Below, piece after piece: positions 1 through 25,098 of a stretch of DNA of 32,973 bases. Within the stretch, counting starts at the first letter, position 1, and each line of letters begins with the position of its first letter. The notes under the pieces are model-generated. The model worked only from the letters and a program-made list of their open reading frames with translations, was not told the DNA's origin and did not search any database. The translations under genes and the position numbers were made by a program. The DNA lies in assembly GCA_027064045.1 (NCBI GenBank), contig JAMOQK010000060.1, positions 1-32,973 of the forward strand, written 5' to 3'. The stretch comes from Sulfurimonas sp. (GTDB lineage: Bacteria > Campylobacterota > Campylobacteria > Campylobacterales > Sulfurimonadaceae).

Positions 1-5999
<5,999 letters not shown>

Positions 6000-6006
6000 T
6001 CTTCTT

Positions 6007-6016
6007 GGCATGTGGG
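6007..6016 (+). repeat. GGCATGTG motif, copy 1
   Basis: GGCATGTGGG, preceded by T, followed by A. Intergenic; left arm of the rpoC hairpin. Confidence 0.85.
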
Positions 6017-6025
6017 ATATTAAAA

Positions 6026-6035
6026 CCCACATGCC
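6026..6035 (-). repeat. GGCATGTG motif, copy 2
   Basis: CCCACATGCC on the plus strand; right arm of the rpoC hairpin. Confidence 0.85.
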
Positions 6036-6100
6036 GATACTTCCCACTATAAAAATTAAATATTAATTCTTTCTTAAAATAAGCTAACTTTAATCACTTT

Positions 6101-6125
6101 TTGAGTATTATCTCGTGTCTATAAT
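6101..6125 (+). promoter_or_regulatory. Candidate promoter for rpsL
   Basis: A perfect TATAAT at 6120-6125 lies 58 bases before the rpsL ATG, in an AT-rich spacer after the rpoC hairpin. A TTGAGT at 6101 is too close (13-base gap) to be a standard -35, but vegetative promoters in this phylum often lack a clear -35 box. Weakly supported. Confidence 0.4.
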
Positions 6126-6183: not shown

Positions 6184-6558
6184 ATGCCTACAATCAATCA
6201 ATTGATTCGCAAAGAGCGTAAAAGAGTGATTAAAAAATCGAAATCACCAGCTCTTGTATCATGTCCACAGCGTCGTGGTGTATGTACTCGTGTTTACACA
6301 ACTACACCTAAAAAACCTAACTCGGCTTTAAGAAAAGTTGCAAAAGTTAGATTAACTTCAGGTTTTGAGGTTATCTCATATATCGGTGGTGAGGGTCATA
6401 ACCTTCAAGAACACTCAATCGTTCTTGTTCGTGGTGGTCGTATTAAAGATTTACCAGGTGTTAAGTATCATATCGTTCGTGGTGCATTAGATACTGCTGG
6501 TGTTGCAAACCGTATGGTTGCTCGTTCTAAATATGGAACAAAAAGACCAAAAAAATAA
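6184..6558 (+). CDS. rpsL: 30S ribosomal protein S12
   Basis: S12 sits at the decoding centre of the small subunit and controls translational accuracy. It is 124 residues, the family length. The diagnostic [14 protein letters not shown]-type loop is present: Lys43 within [12 protein letters not shown] and Lys88 in [10 protein letters not shown]. Both are the wild-type residues whose replacement gives streptomycin resistance, so no resistance substitution is seen at these two positions. The C-terminus [12 protein letters not shown] is typical. The ATG at 6184 follows AAGGA at 6174-6178 with 5-base spacing. First gene of the str-type cluster rpsL-rpsG-fusA; the tuf gene that follows fusA in E. 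coli is absent here. Confidence 0.98.
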
Positions 6559-11699: not shown

Positions 11700-11751
11700 A
11701 AAAGAGCTTTTAAAACTAAGGATATTTTGTTACCATTCATAAAGGATTTTG

Positions 11752-14469
11752 ATGTTTAAAAACAATTTAGCTTATGAGGCGAGTGCTGGAAGTGGTAAAA
11801 CTTTTATGCTTGTTGTTCGTTATCTTTCACTGTTGTTTATGGGTGCTTTGCCATCTAAAATACTTGCACTTACTTTTACAAATAAAGCTGCAAAAGAGAT
11901 GCAAGAGAGGGTGGTTGAAACTTTAGAAGAGTTACAAAACAGAGGTGAACTTGATGAGATAATCAAAGTAACAAATCTTTCAAAAAGTGAGATTTTGGGT
12001 GCTAGAGAGAAACTTTTAGAACAATTTTTAGATACAAATTCTAAGATTATGACTATTGATAGTTTTTTTACTCAGATACTTCGTAAATTTTCACTTTATG
12101 CTTCACTTATGCCAGATTTTACAACTTCTGCTTCGCAACATGAGGTCAAATTACTTTCAAGATTTTTAAAAGAGGTAAGTGTTGCTGGTAAAAAAGATAT
12201 ACTTATTTCACTTTCACTGGAGTCAAATAAGAGGCTTGAAAATATTTTTAATCTACTTGATGAATTTTATATAAAAAAGCAAGAGATAGCACATCTTAAA
12301 TTTACTAAAGTTAATTTTAAAGTGTTCGAGGATGAGGCTTTAGGGTATTTAGAAGAGCTTAAAAATATTGTACATAGTTGCGATAAAGCTTCAGCTACTG
12401 CTAAAAAAGGTGTTGTAGCTGAGAATTTTGAGGAGCTTACGAAAAAAGCATGGTTAAGCAGAGATAGTTTTGATTACAGCACTTTTAGAAAGTGTTATAC
12501 GCCTCAGATGGATACCCTTTTACATCAAATAAAAGAGAGTATAAAAAATCAAAATAGAGCAAAGGAGCAAAACTTCTTTTATGCACTAAATGAACTTGTA
12601 GATATATATGAAAAATCAAAAAAAGCACTATATATGGAAGATAGTGAGCTTAGTTTTTCAGATGTTACAACTTTAGTACATTTTATACTCCGAGAGATAG
12701 CTGATAGTGAGTTTTTATACTTTAGACTTGATGCTGAGATAGAGCATATGCTTTTAGATGAGTTTCAAGACACGAGTATTCTTCAGTATGAGATACTTCG
12801 TCCACTTATAAATGAGATAACTTCAGGAGAGGGGATTTTTGAAAATGGAAGTTTCTTTTTTGTGGGGGATGTTAAACAGTCTATTTATCGTTTTCGTGGT
12901 GGCGTTAGTGCTTTATTTAGTGCGGTTTTAAAAGAGCAAAATACAACTGTGGAACAACTTTTAACAAACTATCGTTCACAAAAAGAGGTTATAGAATTTG
13001 TAAATACTACTTTTATAGATAAAATCAAAAACTATACACCACAAAGAGTAAGAGATGAAGCAGATGGTGGTTTTGTAGAGGTAAAAGAGAGTGATGAACT
13101 GATTAGGCAAAGCATAAAATGTGTGAAGCAACTTATCTCTTTGGGTGCAAATCTAAATGAGATAGCTATACTTTGTGCTACAAATGGCGATGGGGAAAGT
13201 GTCAAAGAGGCTTTAGAAAATGAAAATATAGAGGTAGTAACTGAGACAACAACAAAGCTTATAAATCAAAAAAGTGTCAAAGCAGTTGTAGAGTACTTGA
13301 AATATTTATACTTTTGTGAAGAGATTTACAAGTATAACTTTTTTGCACTTCTTGATGAAGAGTTAGGGGAGATGAAAAAGTTTGATATAAGTAGATATAC
13401 TCTTTTTGAATTGGTGCAAAAAATTATAGAAGAATACAAGCTTTTTAATGATGATTTTCATTTGATGCGATTTTTAAATGTAGTTGTGAGATATAAAGAT
13501 ATTGAAGCATTTTTGTTTGAGTATGAAAGGTTAGACACCGAGGCAGCTGCTTCAGATTTAGTTGGTGTTAGGGTTTTGACTATCCATAAGTCAAAAGGGC
13601 TTGAATATGAGCATGTTATAGTTATGGATAGACTTAAAAAGGCACCACCTTCAAGAGATACCATAATATATGAATATGACAATATAACTCTTAAAAACCT
13701 ATATCTAAGGATAAAAGGTAGAGATGTCTTAGATGACGAGTATGCATATGCCATAGCTAAAGATAAACAACTTCAAAAAGAAGATAATTTAAATGCTTTA
13801 TATGTTGCTTTTACAAGAGCTAAAAGAAATCTATTTGTTGTTATGAAGCCAAAAGATTCTGTATTTGAGATTTTAGATTTGGCATGTGGGAACAGAGGAG
13901 TTTTGATATGCTCGTCACTTGAGAGTAGTACTAAAATTGTCGGCTCAGAAGATAAGAATTTAGAATATAAAGAGATGTATTATGGAACTCAAAGTGATAT
14001 TTTAAAACTAGAAAATGAAAAAGACGAGGACTTAAAGTCTATAAATTTTGGTTTAGCTATGCACTATATGCTTGAGATGTTAGAGAGTTTTACTTCCAAA
14101 TCAATCCCACATGCCAAAACGATGATGTTAAATAAATATGGGTATATTTTAGATGATGAAGAGATAAAAGATATACAAAATCGTGTTGAGATGCTTTTAG
14201 CTTCAAAAGAGTTTATGAGTTTGGTAGATGGAGTATTTTATAAAGAAAAAGCTTTAAGATATAAAAATAACTTGCGTTATCTTGATTTACTTGTAAGTAA
14301 AGATGGCATGTGGGAGGTAGTTGATTATAAAAGTTCTATGAGTTTTATTAAAGAGCATATAAAGCAAGTAAAATATTATATAAATGCAGTTAAAGCAATA
14401 ACAGGAGAGAAAGTTAATGGTTGTCTTTGTTATTTGTTGAAAGATGAGATAAAGATAGTCAAAGTTTAA
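11752..14469 (+). CDS. addA: AddA/RecB-type ATP-dependent helicase-nuclease
   Basis: UvrD-superfamily helicase fused to a RecB-type nuclease, 905 residues. It is probably the AddA subunit that resects double-strand breaks for RecA loading. Visible: Walker A ASAGSGKT at 10-17; LALTFTNKAAKEMQERV (motif Ia); Walker B DEFQD at 336-340; VGDVKQSIYRFRGG (motif III); TIHKSKGLEY and ALYVAFTRAKRNLFV (motifs V and VI); and a C-terminal nuclease signature with Asp845, Asp858 and Lys860 in VVDYKSS. The ATG at 11752 has AAGGA at 11742-11746; the upstream in-frame TTG is less likely. The partner AddB is not adjacent. The gene contains three GGCATGTG motif copies, in three reading registers. It is shorter than Bacillus AddA but fits epsilonproteobacterial forms. 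Confidence 0.85.
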   Translation: MFKNNLAYEASAGSGKTFMLVVRYLSLLFMGALPSKILALTFTNKAAKEMQERVVETLEELQNRGELDEIIKVTNLSKSEILGAREKLLEQFLDTNSKIMTIDSFFTQILRKFSLYASLMPDFTTSASQHEVKLLSRFLKEVSVAGKKDILISLSLESNKRLENIFNLLDEFYIKKQEIAHLKFTKVNFKVFEDEALGYLEELKNIVHSCDKASATAKKGVVAENFEELTKKAWLSRDSFDYSTFRKCYTPQMDTLLHQIKESIKNQNRAKEQNFFYALNELVDIYEKSKKALYMEDSELSFSDVTTLVHFILREIADSEFLYFRLDAEIEHMLLDEFQDTSILQYEILRPLINEITSGEGIFENGSFFFVGDVKQSIYRFRGGVSALFSAVLKEQNTTVEQLLTNYRSQKEVIEFVNTTFIDKIKNYTPQRVRDEADGGFVEVKESDELIRQSIKCVKQLISLGANLNEIAILCATNGDGESVKEALENENIEVVTETTTKLINQKSVKAVVEYLKYLYFCEEIYKYNFFALLDEELGEMKKFDISRYTLFELVQKIIEEYKLFNDDFHLMRFLNVVVRYKDIEAFLFEYERLDTEAAASDLVGVRVLTIHKSKGLEYEHVIVMDRLKKAPPSRDTIIYEYDNITLKNLYLRIKGRDVLDDEYAYAIAKDKQLQKEDNLNALYVAFTRAKRNLFVVMKPKDSVFEILDLACGNRGVLICSSLESSTKIVGSEDKNLEYKEMYYGTQSDILKLENEKDEDLKSINFGLAMHYMLEMLESFTSKSIPHAKTMMLNKYGYILDDEEIKDIQNRVEMLLASKEFMSLVDGVFYKEKALRYKNNLRYLDLLVSKDGMWEVVDYKSSMSFIKEHIKQVKYYINAVKAITGEKVNGCLCYLLKDEIKIVKV
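13881..13890 (+). repeat. GGCATGTG motif, copy 3 (addA)
   Basis: GGCATGTGGG followed by A; register encodes Ala-Cys-Gly. Confidence 0.85.
14106..14115 (-). repeat. GGCATGTG motif, copy 4 (addA)
   Basis: CCCACATGCC; register encodes Pro-His-Ala. Confidence 0.85.
14305..14314 (+). repeat. GGCATGTG motif, copy 5 (addA)
   Basis: GGCATGTGGG followed by A; register encodes Gly-Met-Trp-Glu, just before the nuclease DYK. Confidence 0.85.
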
Positions 14470-15462: not shown

Positions 15463-16986
15463 ATGAAAATTATTTTAAAATATTTATGTCAAATTTTATT
15501 TTTTAGCTCTTGTATTTATGCCTCAACACTGCAACTTGCTATTTCGGCAAATCCATCAAGGATAAATCCAATCTTAGCTACAGATTCAAGTTCTTCTGAG
15601 ATTGCTGGTTATATTTTTAACGGTCTTGTAAAATTTAATAAAAATTCTTCAAATATCATTGGTGATTTAGCAGATGAGTTTTATTTCAAAGATGATACAA
15701 CTCTAATCTTTAAACTAAACCCACATGCCAAATGGAGCGATGGGGTTGAATTTAGCGCTGATGATGTTTTGTTTACATACGAGACAATCATATCTTCTAA
15801 GGTAATATCTCCATATAGTTCTGATTTTAGGTTTGTAAAATATGTTAGGGTGATTGATAGACACACTATAGAGGTAAGGTATAAGAAAGCATATTTCAAA
15901 GCATTAGAAATTTGGATGATGGGGATACTCCCTAAGCATATCTTAAAAGATGAAAAAAATCTTATGAATTCTAAGTTTAATACTCATCCCATAGGTACAG
16001 GTGCTTATAAACTTTTTCAGTTAGAACATTCTAAAAATATTATTTTGATGGCAAATGATAGTTATTTTAAAGGCAGACCAAAGATAGATAAAATATCTTT
16101 TCATGTTATATCAGATCCAATGACCCGTTTTTTGATGCTAAAATCTGGTGAGCTTGATATTGGCTCTGTTGAACCAATGCAATTTGAGAGGCAATTAAAA
16201 AATGATTTCTTTAAAAAGTTTCAAATATATGAAAACATCTCTTTTTCTTACACATATCTAGGATTTAATCTAAAAAGAGAGAAGTTTAAAAATCCAAAAG
16301 TAAGAGAGGCTTTGTCTCTTGGGATAGATAGAGATGAATTAGTAAAAATACTTTTTTTTAAACATGCCAAAGTTTGCACAGGTCCATTTTTACCAAGTAC
16401 AAAAGCTTTTAATCCTGATGTAAAAGCACCAAAACAAAATATAAAAAGGGCAAAACAACTTTTAAAAGAGGTTGGTTATGATGAAGAGCATCCATTTAGT
16501 TTTGAGATAGCAACATCAAACAGTAGTGCCATTAGACCATATGCGGCACAGATACTTCAGTATCAGTTAAAAAAAATTGGTGTGGTTGTAAAACTTAGAG
16601 TGATGGAGTGGCAGGCATTTTTAAATATGGTTGTATTTCCAAGAAAGTTTGATAGTGTACTTTTAGGCTGGGGGTTGTCACCCACACCTGATCCATATAT
16701 GTTATGGCATTCAGACAATGATAAAAAAGGTGGATTTAACTTTGTTGGTTATCACAATAAAAAACTTGATAAACTCATAGAAAAATCACAAAGTATTGTT
16801 GATAGAGAGAAACTATATGGCATGTGGAGAGAGATGTTTAAAATGATAGCAGATGATAATCCTTACTTGTTTTTATATATACCATCTTCTATAACTGCGG
16901 CAAATAAAAAAATCAAACATATACAGCCAAGTTTGAGTGGGATTTGGTATGATTATATTAGATGGGAAAAGGTTGAATTAAAATGA
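15463..16986 (+). CDS. Periplasmic peptide-type ABC transporter substrate-binding protein
   Basis: Family 5 extracellular solute-binding protein (OppA/DppA/NikA type), 507 residues. An N-terminal signal peptide MKIILKYLCQILFFSSCIYA is evident. It could be a lipoprotein only if the Cys were in a proper lipobox, which is unconvincing. Family features follow: ISANPSRINPILATDSSSSEIAGYIFNGLV, KWSDGVEFSADDVLFTYETI, HPIGTGAYKL, and KVREALSLGIDRDELV, all typical of the family. Ligand (peptide, nickel or other) cannot be told. No permease or ATPase gene is adjacent, so it is an orphan receptor. No ribosome-binding site is visible before the ATG at 15463. The stop overlaps the next start as ATGA, so the pair is coupled. 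Two exact GGCATGTG copies and one near-copy lie inside. Confidence 0.88.
   Translation: MKIILKYLCQILFFSSCIYASTLQLAISANPSRINPILATDSSSSEIAGYIFNGLVKFNKNSSNIIGDLADEFYFKDDTTLIFKLNPHAKWSDGVEFSADDVLFTYETIISSKVISPYSSDFRFVKYVRVIDRHTIEVRYKKAYFKALEIWMMGILPKHILKDEKNLMNSKFNTHPIGTGAYKLFQLEHSKNIILMANDSYFKGRPKIDKISFHVISDPMTRFLMLKSGELDIGSVEPMQFERQLKNDFFKKFQIYENISFSYTYLGFNLKREKFKNPKVREALSLGIDRDELVKILFFKHAKVCTGPFLPSTKAFNPDVKAPKQNIKRAKQLLKEVGYDEEHPFSFEIATSNSSAIRPYAAQILQYQLKKIGVVVKLRVMEWQAFLNMVVFPRKFDSVLLGWGLSPTPDPYMLWHSDNDKKGGFNFVGYHNKKLDKLIEKSQSIVDREKLYGMWREMFKMIADDNPYLFLYIPSSITAANKKIKHIQPSLSGIWYDYIRWEKVELK
15720..15729 (-). repeat. GGCATGTG motif, copy 6 (substrate-binding protein)
   Basis: CCCACATGCC; register encodes Pro-His-Ala. 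Confidence 0.85.
16819..16827 (+). repeat. GGCATGTG motif, copy 7 (substrate-binding protein)
   Basis: GGCATGTGG followed by A; register encodes Gly-Met-Trp. Confidence 0.85.
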
Positions 16987-17621
16987 TAATATTGTTCGAT
17001 TTAGATGGAACGCTTATAGATTCTACAGATGCAATAGTAAGTACATTTCACTATGCTTGTGATATGCAAAAGTTTCAAAAAGTAACAGATGAGAAAATTA
17101 TGGCTCTGATTGGTTATCCTTTGGATATTATGTTTAAAAGTGTTGGTGTTAGTGATGATAAAGTTTGGGATTTTGTAGCTAGTTATAAAGAAGAATATAG
17201 AAAAATTTCAACTCAAAAAACTACACTTTTAGAGGGGGCAAACGAGAGCATATTAAGTGCTAAAGAGTTCGCTACTTTGGGGATTGTAACAACGAAAACG
17301 GGACGATATTCTGAGGTTTTAATGGAGTATTTTGGTTTGATGAAGTATTTTGATGTTTTGATAGGACGAGAGGATGTTGAACATCCAAAGCCACATGCCG
17401 AGCCTATATTAAAAGCTATGGATAAGTTGGAGATTGGTACTAAAGAGATTTGGATGATAGGTGACACCAAACTTGATTTAATCTCTGCACAAAATGCTGG
17501 TATAAACTCGATTGGTGTGCTTAGTGGCTATGGTAGTGAGGATGATTTGAGAAATTTTACCGATATTATTTTTGATAATACACTTCAAGCTGTAAATTTT
17601 TTAAAGAGTAGGAAAAAATAA
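16983..17621 (+). CDS. HAD-family phosphatase, phosphoglycolate-phosphatase-like
   Basis: Haloacid dehalogenase superfamily hydrolase of 212 residues, resembling Gph/PpaX. Motif I FDLDGTLIDS at residues 5-14 supplies the nucleophile Asp and the acid/base Asp. The cap region follows (residues about 15-80). Motif II is the Thr of GIVTTKTGR; the motif III Lys lies in EHPKPHAEPI; motif IV is GDTKLDLISAQNAG. Natural substrates of this subfamily include 2-phosphoglycolate, pyrophosphate and nucleotides; the actual one cannot be assigned. Translation is probably coupled to the upstream substrate-binding protein through a 4-base ATGA overlap. One GGCATGTG copy encodes part of KPHAEP. Confidence 0.85.
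   Translation: MIILFDLDGTLIDSTDAIVSTFHYACDMQKFQKVTDEKIMALIGYPLDIMFKSVGVSDDKVWDFVASYKEEYRKISTQKTTLLEGANESILSAKEFATLGIVTTKTGRYSEVLMEYFGLMKYFDVLIGREDVEHPKPHAEPILKAMDKLEIGTKEIWMIGDTKLDLISAQNAGINSIGVLSGYGSEDDLRNFTDIIFDNTLQAVNFLKSRKK
17391..17399 (-). repeat. GGCATGTG motif, copy 8 (HAD phosphatase)
   Basis: CCACATGCC; register encodes Pro-His-Ala. Confidence 0.85.
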
Positions 17622-21099: not shown

Positions 21100-21108
21100 C
21101 CACATGCC
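21100..21108 (-). repeat. GGCATGTG motif, copy 9 (luxS start)
   Basis: CCACATGCC; its internal ATG at 21104 is the luxS start codon. Confidence 0.85.
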
Positions 21109-21954: not shown

Positions 21955-22707
21955 GTGAAGTTTGATACAAAATCTCATAAAATGGTTTTGAGTGAAGATG
22001 GCTCATATACTGCTTACTCAAAAGAGTATGATGAACATTATCATTCAACTAGAGATGGTGCTTTACATGAGTCTCTGCTTAAACATATTCAACCAGCTTT
22101 TAAAACTCAAAAACATAAACAAGAGATAGATATACTAGATATTTGTTTTGGTTTGGGGTTTAATACTTTAGCAACTTTTTATCATGCAAAACAATATCTT
22201 GGACAAACTAAAATCAATATCTATTCCCCAGAATTAGATGAAGAGCTTGTTCAATCATTAAAAGATTTTAAATATCCAAAAGAGTTTGATGAGTTTAAAC
22301 ATATTGTTTTAGCATTGGTTGAAAATGGTGTTTATGATGATGAATTATGGCATGTGGAGTTATTTTTAGGCGATGCTAGAAAATATATAAAAACATTTCC
22401 ACAAGCCAAATTTGACATAGTATATCAAGATGCTTTTTCTCCGAGTACAAATCCAATTCTTTGGACAAAAGAGTATTTTTCGGATATTAGAAAGATTATA
22501 AAAGAAGATGGAGTTGTAACAACTTATTCCATAGCTTTAGCAACAAGGTTAGCTTTGTATGAAAACGGATTTAATCTATATATAAATTCTGGCAAGGAGT
22601 TTAGAGATGCTACCATAGCTTCCCCATCACACCTAGATGACTTTAAAATTGTTGATATGATTCATAAAATCAGCTGTAACTCACATGCCAAACCTCTTAT
22701 GGATTGA
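21955..22707 (+). CDS. MnmC-type tRNA (5-aminomethyl-2-thiouridine) methyltransferase, stand-alone
   Basis: A DUF752-type SAM-dependent methyltransferase corresponding to the N-terminal MnmC(m) half of bifunctional MnmC, 250 residues. It methylates nm5(s2)U34 to mnm5(s2)U34 in family members. Visible: GSYTAYSKEYDEHYHS near the start, SAM loop ICFGLGFNT at 63-71, and the signature YQDAFSPSTNPILWT with Asp159. There is no FAD oxidoreductase domain. The start is GTG at 21955 with GGGAA upstream; the ATG at 21938 runs into a stop. It contains two motif copies. It overlaps the convergent recQ end by 11 bases. Confidence 0.85.
   Translation: MKFDTKSHKMVLSEDGSYTAYSKEYDEHYHSTRDGALHESLLKHIQPAFKTQKHKQEIDILDICFGLGFNTLATFYHAKQYLGQTKINIYSPELDEELVQSLKDFKYPKEFDEFKHIVLALVENGVYDDELWHVELFLGDARKYIKTFPQAKFDIVYQDAFSPSTNPILWTKEYFSDIRKIIKEDGVVTTYSIALATRLALYENGFNLYINSGKEFRDATIASPSHLDDFKIVDMIHKISCNSHAKPLMD
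22349..22357 (+). repeat. GGCATGTG motif, copy 10 (MnmC-type gene)
   Basis: GGCATGTGG followed by A; register encodes Trp-His-Val-Glu. Confidence 0.85.
22682..22689 (-). repeat. GGCATGTG motif, copy 11 (MnmC-type gene)
   Basis: CACATGCC core only (extended GGCATGTGAG); register encodes Ser-His-Ala. Confidence 0.75.
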
Positions 22708-24487
22708 TAATTTCTAAAAATTCTTCTCCAAATTGTTCAAATTTTTTCTCCCCTATGCCATTTACTTCAAGCATAGTTGCTTTGTCATAAGGTTTGTCAT
22801 TGGCTAAGTGTTTTAGGGTTTTATCACTAAAAATAATATATGCAGGAACACCAAGTTCACTGGCTAACTCTGAGCGTTTTACCCGTAACTTTTCAAACAA
22901 TTCTGAGTCATATTCAAAACTATCAACACTTTTTACTCTTTTTTCTTTTGTATTAATTTCTAATCTTGAAGATTTTATATCTATCGTTTTTTGTGATTTT
23001 AAAATCTTTATTGCATCATTCGTAAGTTTTAACGAACTAAAATCACCAACTTCTAAAACTCTAGTCTCCATGAGTCTCTCAAGCACAATAAACCACTCTT
23101 TTTTACTCAAGTAAGTTCCAATCCCATAAACAGAAAGTTTGTCAGCTTTATTTGTTAAAAGTTTTTGTTCTTTTGATCCTCTTAAAATATCTATGATGTA
23201 GTTTTTTCCAAAGTTTTGACCTGTTTTGTAGATGGTGCTAAGGAGCATTTGAGCCTCTTTGGTTATATCTTTTCTCTCATCATCTTTATGCAGGCAGTTA
23301 TCACATCTCTCCCCACATTCATCCATCTCATCATCAAAATAGTGAGCCAACTGTTGATGATAGCAAACTTCACTTGTCGCAAATTTATATATGCCATTGA
23401 TTTTAGATTCAAGATGTTGAGCGTACTCTTTGTCTGTTATAGCTTTTAAAAACTGTTTTTGAAGTACCATGTCTCCAGCATTAAAAAGCAATAATACTTC
23501 GCTGTTTTCCCCATCTCTGCCAGAACGACCAATCTCTTGATAATAATTTTCAATCGTTTTTGGTAAACTCATATGTACAACAAATCTTATATCACTCTTA
23601 TCTATTCCCATCCCAAAAGCTATGGTTGCGACCATTATATTTACTTTGTCATTTACAAAAATTTTAAAGTTTTGTTCCCTTGTGTGTTGTGGAAGTCCAG
23701 CATGATAAGGTAATGATTTATAGCCATTTTGATTAAGATAGGCACTTAAATCCTCTGCTTTTTTACGACTACTTACATATATGATACCACTCTCTTGCAC
23801 ATGCCTAGATAAAAAGTTTTTAAGTTGTGCGTAACCGTTTGTAATTCGTCTTTGTGTTGAGATGTAGATATTTTTACGAAAGATTTTACCTTTTAGAACA
23901 AGTGGATTTTCTAGTTTTAGTTCCCTTAAAATATCATCTTTTACATGATTTGTGCTTGTCGCTGTAAATGCACAGATATTGGCATGTGGGAAGTTGTGTT
24001 TTAAGTTCCCCAAAGCCCTGTAATCTTCACGAAACTCATGTCCCCATTGACTTATGCAGTGAGCTTCATCAATCACAAAAAAATTGATTTTTAAACTCTT
24101 TAGCAGATCATAACTCCATTGAGTATTTAGTCTCTCAGGGGATAAATATAAAAATTTTAACTCCCCCATGCGAAGTTTATATACCACTTCATCTATCTCA
24201 TCTTTTGTTTGTGAAGAGTTTATCATATCTGCAGGAATTTGTTGTGCTTTTAGTGCTGAAACTTGATCTTGCATGAGTGCTATGAGTGGTGAAATAACAA
24301 CACTGACACCATCTTTCATAAGTGTTGGAAGTTGAAAAACAAGGCTTTTTCCACCACCTGTTGGCAGTATCATAAGGAGGTCTTTGCCATTTAGTATAGC
24401 ATCAACTCCCTCCTCTTGAAGAGGTCTAAAGCTATTGTGTCCGAAGTTATCTTTTAAAACTTTATTTTTGATGATTAAAGCTTTCAA
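22697..24487 (-). CDS. recQ: ATP-dependent DNA helicase RecQ
   Basis: 3'-5' superfamily 2 helicase acting at recombination intermediates and stalled forks, 596 residues. Visible: FRPLQ (Q-motif-like); Walker A LPTGGGKS at 41-48; DEAH at 140-143 followed by CISQWGHEFREDYR; motif VI QEIGRSGRDG; the RecQ zinc-binding region with four Cys ending CGERCDNC around residues 380-400; an RQC-like winged helix; and a C-terminal HRDC domain (ELASELGVPAYIIFSDKTL). The start is TTG at 24487-24485, overlapping the ribE stop as TTGA. No in-frame ATG or GTG is close, so reinitiation after ribE is likely. Two GGCATGTG copies lie inside. Confidence 0.94.
   Translation of the reverse strand: MKALIIKNKVLKDNFGHNSFRPLQEEGVDAILNGKDLLMILPTGGGKSLVFQLPTLMKDGVSVVISPLIALMQDQVSALKAQQIPADMINSSQTKDEIDEVVYKLRMGELKFLYLSPERLNTQWSYDLLKSLKINFFVIDEAHCISQWGHEFREDYRALGNLKHNFPHANICAFTATSTNHVKDDILRELKLENPLVLKGKIFRKNIYISTQRRITNGYAQLKNFLSRHVQESGIIYVSSRKKAEDLSAYLNQNGYKSLPYHAGLPQHTREQNFKIFVNDKVNIMVATIAFGMGIDKSDIRFVVHMSLPKTIENYYQEIGRSGRDGENSEVLLLFNAGDMVLQKQFLKAITDKEYAQHLESKINGIYKFATSEVCYHQQLAHYFDDEMDECGERCDNCLHKDDERKDITKEAQMLLSTIYKTGQNFGKNYIIDILRGSKEQKLLTNKADKLSVYGIGTYLSKKEWFIVLERLMETRVLEVGDFSSLKLTNDAIKILKSQKTIDIKSSRLEINTKEKRVKSVDSFEYDSELFEKLRVKRSELASELGVPAYIIFSDKTLKHLANDKPYDKATMLEVNGIGEKKFEQFGEEFLEIINP
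23798..23805 (-). repeat. GGCATGTG motif, copy 12 (recQ)
   Basis: CACATGCC core only; recQ register encodes Arg-His-Val. Confidence 0.75.
23981..23990 (+). repeat. GGCATGTG motif, copy 13 (recQ)
   Basis: GGCATGTGGG followed by A; on the recQ strand it encodes Pro-His-Ala. Confidence 0.85.
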
Positions 24488-25098
24488 AAAGTTGCATTGA
24501 TAGCATCAACTTCATCCCAACTAAGAGATACTTTGTTTTGGTGTTTTATGATGTGAGCCACATATCTAGCAAACATATCTGTCTCAATATTTACTTTTGT
24601 GCCTTTTTTATAGTTTTTAAACAGTGTCTCTTTCATGGTATGTGGGATAATTGTTAAACGAAAACTATCATTAAAAACATCATTTACAGTAAGACTCACT
24701 CCATCAATGGTTATAGAGCCTTTAGGTATCACAAAAGCTATAAAATTTGTAGGTATAGTTATAAAAATATCATAAGAATTGCCATTGTTTTTTATCTCTT
24801 TTATCTCCCCTACACAATCCACATGCCCTTGAACTACATGTCCTTCAAATTTATCGCCCATCATCATAGCAGGTTCTATATGAACTTTATTTTTATAGTT
24901 TTGTATAGCTAAAAGTTTTTGGCTTTCTGGTGACAACTCCACGCTAAAACCATCATTGTTCACTTTTATAACTGTTAAACATGCACCGTTTATTGCGATA
25001 GAATCTCCAACTTTTGCTTTGTAGGATGATTTTATACTGAGTGTGCTACCAACGAAACTTTTTACTGTTGCTATCTCTCTTATAAGCCCTGTAAACAT
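24484..25098 (-). CDS. ribE: Riboflavin synthase, alpha-type
   Basis: Catalyses dismutation of two 6,7-dimethyl-8-ribityllumazine molecules to riboflavin. It is 204 residues, typical. It begins MFTGLIREIATVKS, the invariant N-terminus, and has two tandem lumazine-binding barrels: the first with AINGACLTV, the second with TIDGVSLTVNDV, plus VQGHVDCVGEI at the domain junction. The C-terminal helix serves trimerisation. It is first in a minus-strand pair with recQ. It is divergent from mnmG across a 116-base AT-rich spacer. One motif copy encodes part of GHVD. Confidence 0.95.
   Translation of the reverse strand: MFTGLIREIATVKSFVGSTLSIKSSYKAKVGDSIAINGACLTVIKVNNDGFSVELSPESQKLLAIQNYKNKVHIEPAMMMGDKFEGHVVQGHVDCVGEIKEIKNNGNSYDIFITIPTNFIAFVIPKGSITIDGVSLTVNDVFNDSFRLTIIPHTMKETLFKNYKKGTKVNIETDMFARYVAHIIKHQNKVSLSWDEVDAINATF
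24819..24827 (-). repeat. GGCATGTG motif, copy 14 (ribE)
   Basis: CCACATGCC; on the ribE strand it encodes Gly-His-Val. Confidence 0.85.

Follow-up and report, generated by a model that had tools for sequence, protein, structure and literature searches.

Directly behind the rpoC gene of a sulfur-oxidising bacterium, Sulfurimonas, two copies of one short word form an inverted pair. We asked whether this site keeps its hairpin for the sake of the structure or for the sake of the word from which the arms are built. The window, the whole stretch of 32,973 nucleotides that was analysed, comes from a draft genome (1.53 Mb, 75% complete) in which it is contig 60. The RpoC of this genome is 92% identical to Sulfurimonas RpoC.

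A stem-loop behind rpoC is built from a repeated word

The features of the locus are as follows:

1464–5999, + strand: rpoC, open reading frame; the hairpin adjoins its 3′ end
6005–6037, + strand: full stem-loop from RNA folding, with T-A and T-G closing pairs
6007–6016, + strand: left arm GGCATGTGGG, forward copy of the motif
6026–6035, − strand: right arm CCCACATGCC, reverse copy of the motif
6184–6558, + strand: rpsL, open reading frame, the next gene 3′ of the hairpin

The stop codon of rpoC is a TAG ending at 5999, and the left arm starts 7 nt past it. GGCATGTGGG and CCCACATGCC form a 10-bp inverted pair with no mismatch around a 9-nt loop, ATATTAAAA (6017–6025). The original prediction of a perfect 10-bp pair at 6007 and 6026, separated by 9 bases behind the rpoC stop, was thus exact in its coordinates. 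As RNA, the site gave one stem-loop of 12 pairs at −20.6 kcal/mol (z = −5.3), and none of 200 shuffled sequences was as stable. The pair had also been described as the only one in the window, which is correct for short pairs, as the next best, within a gene at 22349, has a 41-nt gap and one mismatch. A perfect 10-bp inverted repeat is not rare as such, since about one per 33 kb is expected by chance when estimated from base composition. Chance does not account for arms that consist of a word repeated in the window and the genome and that stand 7 nt behind a stop codon.

The reported lack of a T-run was borne out: none follows the stem-loop, whose 3′ side reads GATACTTCCC. A terminator scan gave no match at the hairpin site. 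Thus, with the stem of −20.6 kcal/mol present and the U-tract absent, the rpoC hairpin is not a canonical intrinsic terminator. Further downstream, a TATAAT at 6120–6125, 58 nt upstream of rpsL, was seen by eye and not reported by the scan. It is a possible −10 element, which suggests that a separate promoter, located behind the rpoC hairpin, serves rpsL.

The word is over-represented and lies mostly in coding DNA

The 9-mer GGCATGTGG was found 12 times in the window, against 0.06 expected. Apart from the hairpin, the copies are located as follows:

13881–13890, + strand: motif copy in a UvrD/AddA-like helicase gene
14106–14115, − strand: motif copy in a UvrD/AddA-like helicase gene
14305–14314, + strand: motif copy in a UvrD/AddA-like helicase gene
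15720–15729, − strand: motif copy in a solute-binding protein gene
16819–16827, + strand: 9-mer copy in the solute-binding protein gene that also holds the copy at 15720–15729
17391–17399, − strand: 9-mer copy in a HAD hydrolase gene
21100–21108, − strand: 9-mer copy at the start of luxS
22349–22357, + strand: 9-mer copy in a methyltransferase-like gene
23981–23990, + strand: motif copy in recQ
24819–24827, − strand: 9-mer copy in a lumazine-binding (ribE-like) gene

Four of the five ten-mers outside the hairpin fall in genes for recombination- or repair-type helicases, UvrD/AddA-like (11749–14469) and RecQ (22697–24487). Leaving the hairpin aside, the rpoBC, str operon, POR and cytochrome bc genes of the window contain no ten-mer. 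The copies in helicase genes recall the reported excess of DUS, the uptake sequences of Neisseriaceae, in genome-maintenance genes.

Across the genome, the ten-mer GGCATGTGGG was counted 206 times (100 and 106 on the two strands), and its reversed control 0 times. The 9-mer had 500 copies against 2 for its reversed control. The consensus of the motif is TTTGGCATGTGGRA, extended to YTTTGGCATGTGGRAWT with its AT-rich flanks. A 716-kb sample held 281 perfect copies of the 9-mer versus 157 with a single mismatch, all 27 variants summed; an excess of perfect over singly mismatched copies has been named as a hallmark of DUS and of USS, the uptake signal sequences of Pasteurellaceae (PMC1626085).

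Motif density was equal in coding and intergenic DNA (0.385 and 0.391 per kb), and no preference of the motif for non-coding DNA was found in this genome. About 92% of the copies, a share that is approximate because a plain length threshold defined the ORFs, lay inside ORFs, mostly as single copies and with all six reading frames used. Orientation was unbiased relative to genes (121/137) and relative to GC skew (129/117, p = 0.48), for which the genes themselves gave 412/200. Spacing was clustered (CV 1.17 versus 0.95 for random), and a test for regular spacing of the motif did not find it. The location in ORFs in all frames, the equal density and the lack of orientation bias together speak against reading the word as a regulatory operator, a Chi-type signal or a REP element. 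Moreover, the coding DNA of the related loci L057 (at 3017) and L075 (at 3654) has, at the corresponding place, an incomplete form of the word that aligns without gaps. This implies that motif copies arise by substitution and not by insertion.

Inverted pairs of the word lie behind stop codons

Seven inverted pairs with a gap of at most 15 were present in the 716-kb sample, all of them starting 6–23 nt behind a stop codon; random placement would give about 0.9 such pairs. When gaps of up to 20 were allowed, the whole genome contained 10 pairs. Close inverted pairs also occurred in relatives (94 in G174, 80 in G170, and 36 in each of G160 and G204), and every control gave 0, which excludes that the rpoC pair stands alone genome-wide. 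Where flanks were available, 31 of 35 pairs, a few of which are one place fetched twice, were located behind stops, and 10 of the 31 lay between convergent genes. These results agree with the prediction of an uptake-sequence-like motif whose inverted pairs follow stop codons as in Neisseria. In Neisseriaceae, inverted DUS pairs are associated with terminators, as reported by Frye et al. 2013 (PMC3630211).

Relatives carry dialects of the word and unrelated words

We surveyed samples of up to 20 kb per genome and made whole-genome counts over 135 Sulfurimonas genomes. GGCATGTG reached 140–1668 copies in eight relatives, and dialects were found in G035 (CTTGGCATGT) and G036 (AGCATGTGGA). The class B word, TACATGTA, had about 276–848 copies in about 20 genomes, with controls near 50, and the class C word, CTCACGCA, had 621–962 copies in seven genomes, with controls near 20. 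A CTCACGCA-type word, which is unrelated in sequence to the window motif, occurred at about 0.7 per kb (621–948 copies per genome) in G007/L229, G013/L235, G020/L242, G022/L244 and G027/L249. Additionally, G014/L236 and G023/L245 showed an AAACGCA(G)-type word at about 0.9 per kb, as judged from 20-kb samples only, and this word has ACGCA in common with class C. The class cores are GCATGT (A) and ACATGT (B), both of which fit RCATGY, and ACGCA (C and D). In many other Sulfurimonas, no such repeated word was detected at the sampling depth used.

The class labels follow the rpoC tree, with 5 label changes versus 16 in shuffles; classes C and D each form one group, and A and B show three changes each. 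Class B was denser in non-coding than in coding DNA (0.81 versus 0.27 per kb in a 100-kb sample). Outside the genus, L258 (G055, another family of the order) has a very dense palindromic word, TACATGTAA, seen 22 times in 20 kb against 0.3 expected. The over-represented word of G053 (L261) was discarded because it stems from repeats in one stretch, mostly at a spacing of about 120 bp. This array (L261:1375–5266) encodes DGTVV-like units, looks like RCC1-type repeats and mimics an over-represented word.

The hairpin site behind rpoC is kept independently of the motif

We took the region behind rpoC from over 100 relatives. A hairpin scoring at least 20 was present in 76 of 107 loci, compared with 0.6% of shuffles. 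Its arms vary by clade and are mostly unrelated sequences, and the 8 nt past the hairpins are barely enriched in T (fraction 0.42 versus 0.39 in the background). Among the nine motif-bearing genomes, the arms consisted of the motif or the genome's own variant in eight. The motif itself was found in this genome, L035, L037 (with one arm imperfect), L041, L050, L057 and G035, and G036 uses its own variant TACATGTG (ACATGTG); L038 is the sole motif-bearing genome without the motif in its rpoC hairpin. None of the 44 motif-free relatives has the motif there, and most of them retain a hairpin with unrelated arms and no T-run. Before L035 was added, GCATGTG was present in the arms of six of eight motif genomes and none of the 44 others (Fisher p = 1.4e-6, a guide only, because relatives are not independent). 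Since motif-free relatives keep the hairpin with unrelated arms, conservation of its position does not depend on the motif, which was recruited into an existing hairpin site.

The arrangement of the arms provided further evidence. The hairpin of L050 is tail-to-tail, with CCACATGCC first, while those of its sisters L041 and L057 are head-to-head (clade support 100/99), which indicates that motif copies re-formed the hairpin on at least two occasions. A TACATGTA-type word builds the rpoC hairpin of L033, L083, L084, L088, L110 and G110 and is not used there in most class B genomes examined; in class C genomes, CTCACGCA is not used in it. The arm sequences ATATGAGC, GTACAGCT and GTATGTGG of motif-free clades were rejected as candidate dialects, as each is represented by essentially just the two hairpin copies per 14-kb locus, a small sample.

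These data bear on one part of the original prediction that did not stand, namely that the missing T-run makes the motif, rather than the hairpin, the reason for retention. Because hairpins occur in 76 of 107 loci with mostly unrelated arms and are barely T-rich behind, the lack of a T-run is no proof of motif-driven retention. It is the rpoC hairpin itself that is retained, with the motif as a guest in it.

Alternative explanations

A plain transcript-end hairpin, acting as a terminator or an RNA stabiliser and carrying the motif incidentally, would fit the frequency of hairpins at this site, far above that of shuffles, and their many unrelated arm sequences. We consider it unlikely, since arms made of the genome's own repeated word in 8/9 motif genomes and 0/44 others mean that the motif in the hairpin is not incidental; for a plain terminator, the U-tract is missing as well. 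It is quite improbable that the word is the site of a DNA methylase (RCATGY) serving self-recognition in uptake, in place of the naked sequence. Such a system has a precedent in Campylobacter jejuni, whose DNA uptake requires methylated RAATTY (PMC10046745), and the cores of classes A and B fit RCATGY; however, the conserved word, with at least 9 specific bases and AT flanks, far exceeds a hexamer, and the ACGCA core of classes C and D does not fit.

Slightly less probable still is that the word acts as a Chi-like hot spot of recombination or as some other chromosome signal oriented with replication. Hundreds of mostly genic copies with genus-specific variants would be in keeping with it, as would the AddA/UvrD-like helicase also encoded in the window, but the leading-strand bias of such a signal is missing from the copies (129/117 against GC skew) and present in the genes (412/200). 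The excess of close inverted pairs behind stops, not expected of Chi, and the palindromic related words in other clades also speak against this explanation. REP/BIME-like palindromes spread by a transposase share with the word the inverted pairs at gene ends. We disfavour them as very improbable, given that most copies are single, lie in ORFs and occupy all frames and that the gap-free partial words in L057 and L075 point to an origin by substitution.

A candidate uptake-sequence system in Sulfurimonas

The repeats, their dialects, the excess of pairs behind stops and the restriction of motif-built rpoC arms to genomes that carry the motif are best read as a dialect-bearing uptake-sequence system, a reading to which we give a probability of roughly 0.66. 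Such a system would have evolved in convergence with the DUS of Neisseria and the USS of Haemophilus, by which these bacteria recognise and import DNA of their own kind. We infer that the word works like an uptake sequence, as an analogy and not as a claim of proven membership. A surface receptor would bind the word and prefer DNA carrying it, and recombination of the DNA preferentially taken up would raise its copy number. The word would be best tolerated where an inverted pair can double as a transcript-end hairpin. The positionally conserved site behind rpoC would have taken on the motif because structure and uptake signal can both be met by an inverted pair, and the hairpin may end or stabilise the rpoC transcript.

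ComEC was present in 30 of the 31 genomes tested and prepilin genes in all 6 tested, which makes uptake possible. Motif-free relatives have them too, and thus ComEC is not discriminating. A receptor for the word was not identified, and the mature parts of the three prepilins detected in this genome are acidic (pI 4.5–5.4). Because neither a preference for non-coding DNA nor regular spacing was found here and a receptor did not emerge, the word is a candidate uptake sequence. In two class C genomes, the ComEC matches contain one internal TGA (G071:C1:254710–255462 and G013:C74:7242–7985); competence may have been lost there with the word still in place, or the assembly may be at fault.

Like the DUS of Neisseriaceae, the Sulfurimonas word of about 10 bp has hundreds of copies, species dialects around a fixed core and inverted pairs (PMC3630211). 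It differs in being unrelated in sequence and phylum, in its lower density, in having at least two unrelated cores in one genus and in that a ComP-like receptor was not identified. With the USS of Pasteurellaceae it shares a 9-bp core with AT-rich flanks, more perfect than singly mismatched copies, no orientation bias, an origin of copies by substitution and some close inverted pairs (PMC1626085), while sequence and phylum differ. USS/DUS are reported to be slightly regular in spacing and concentrated in non-coding DNA, whereas the Sulfurimonas word is clustered and has no such excess in this genome. The methylated RAATTY of C. jejuni, the known case of such discrimination in this phylum, is likewise a short DNA mark for telling self-DNA apart; in contrast to this methylated hexamer, Sulfurimonas has a strongly over-represented word of 9–14 bp with inverted pairs.

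In the open-licence literature, we found uptake sequences described solely for Neisseriaceae and Pasteurellaceae, and no description for Sulfurimonas or Campylobacterota. Evenly poised, in our judgement, is the further possibility that the system evolved independently in a third bacterial lineage, the Campylobacterota, where a single genus would have two or more unrelated word families (RCATGY, classes A and B; ACGCA, classes C and D) and the rpoC hairpin would be a fixed site whose arms are overwritten by the lineage's dialect. Under this reading, the presence of at least two unrelated families would mean repeated switches of uptake specificity.

Nowhere do bacteria mark their own DNA more clearly than with uptake sequences, and how uptake specificity arises and changes has long been debated. 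A genus in which several dialects occur, some have been lost and unrelated words have apparently replaced one another would allow the origin and change of specificity to be studied on a tree of more than 130 genomes. The rpoC site would present this process at a single locus, where the hairpin is kept and its letters shift to the local word.
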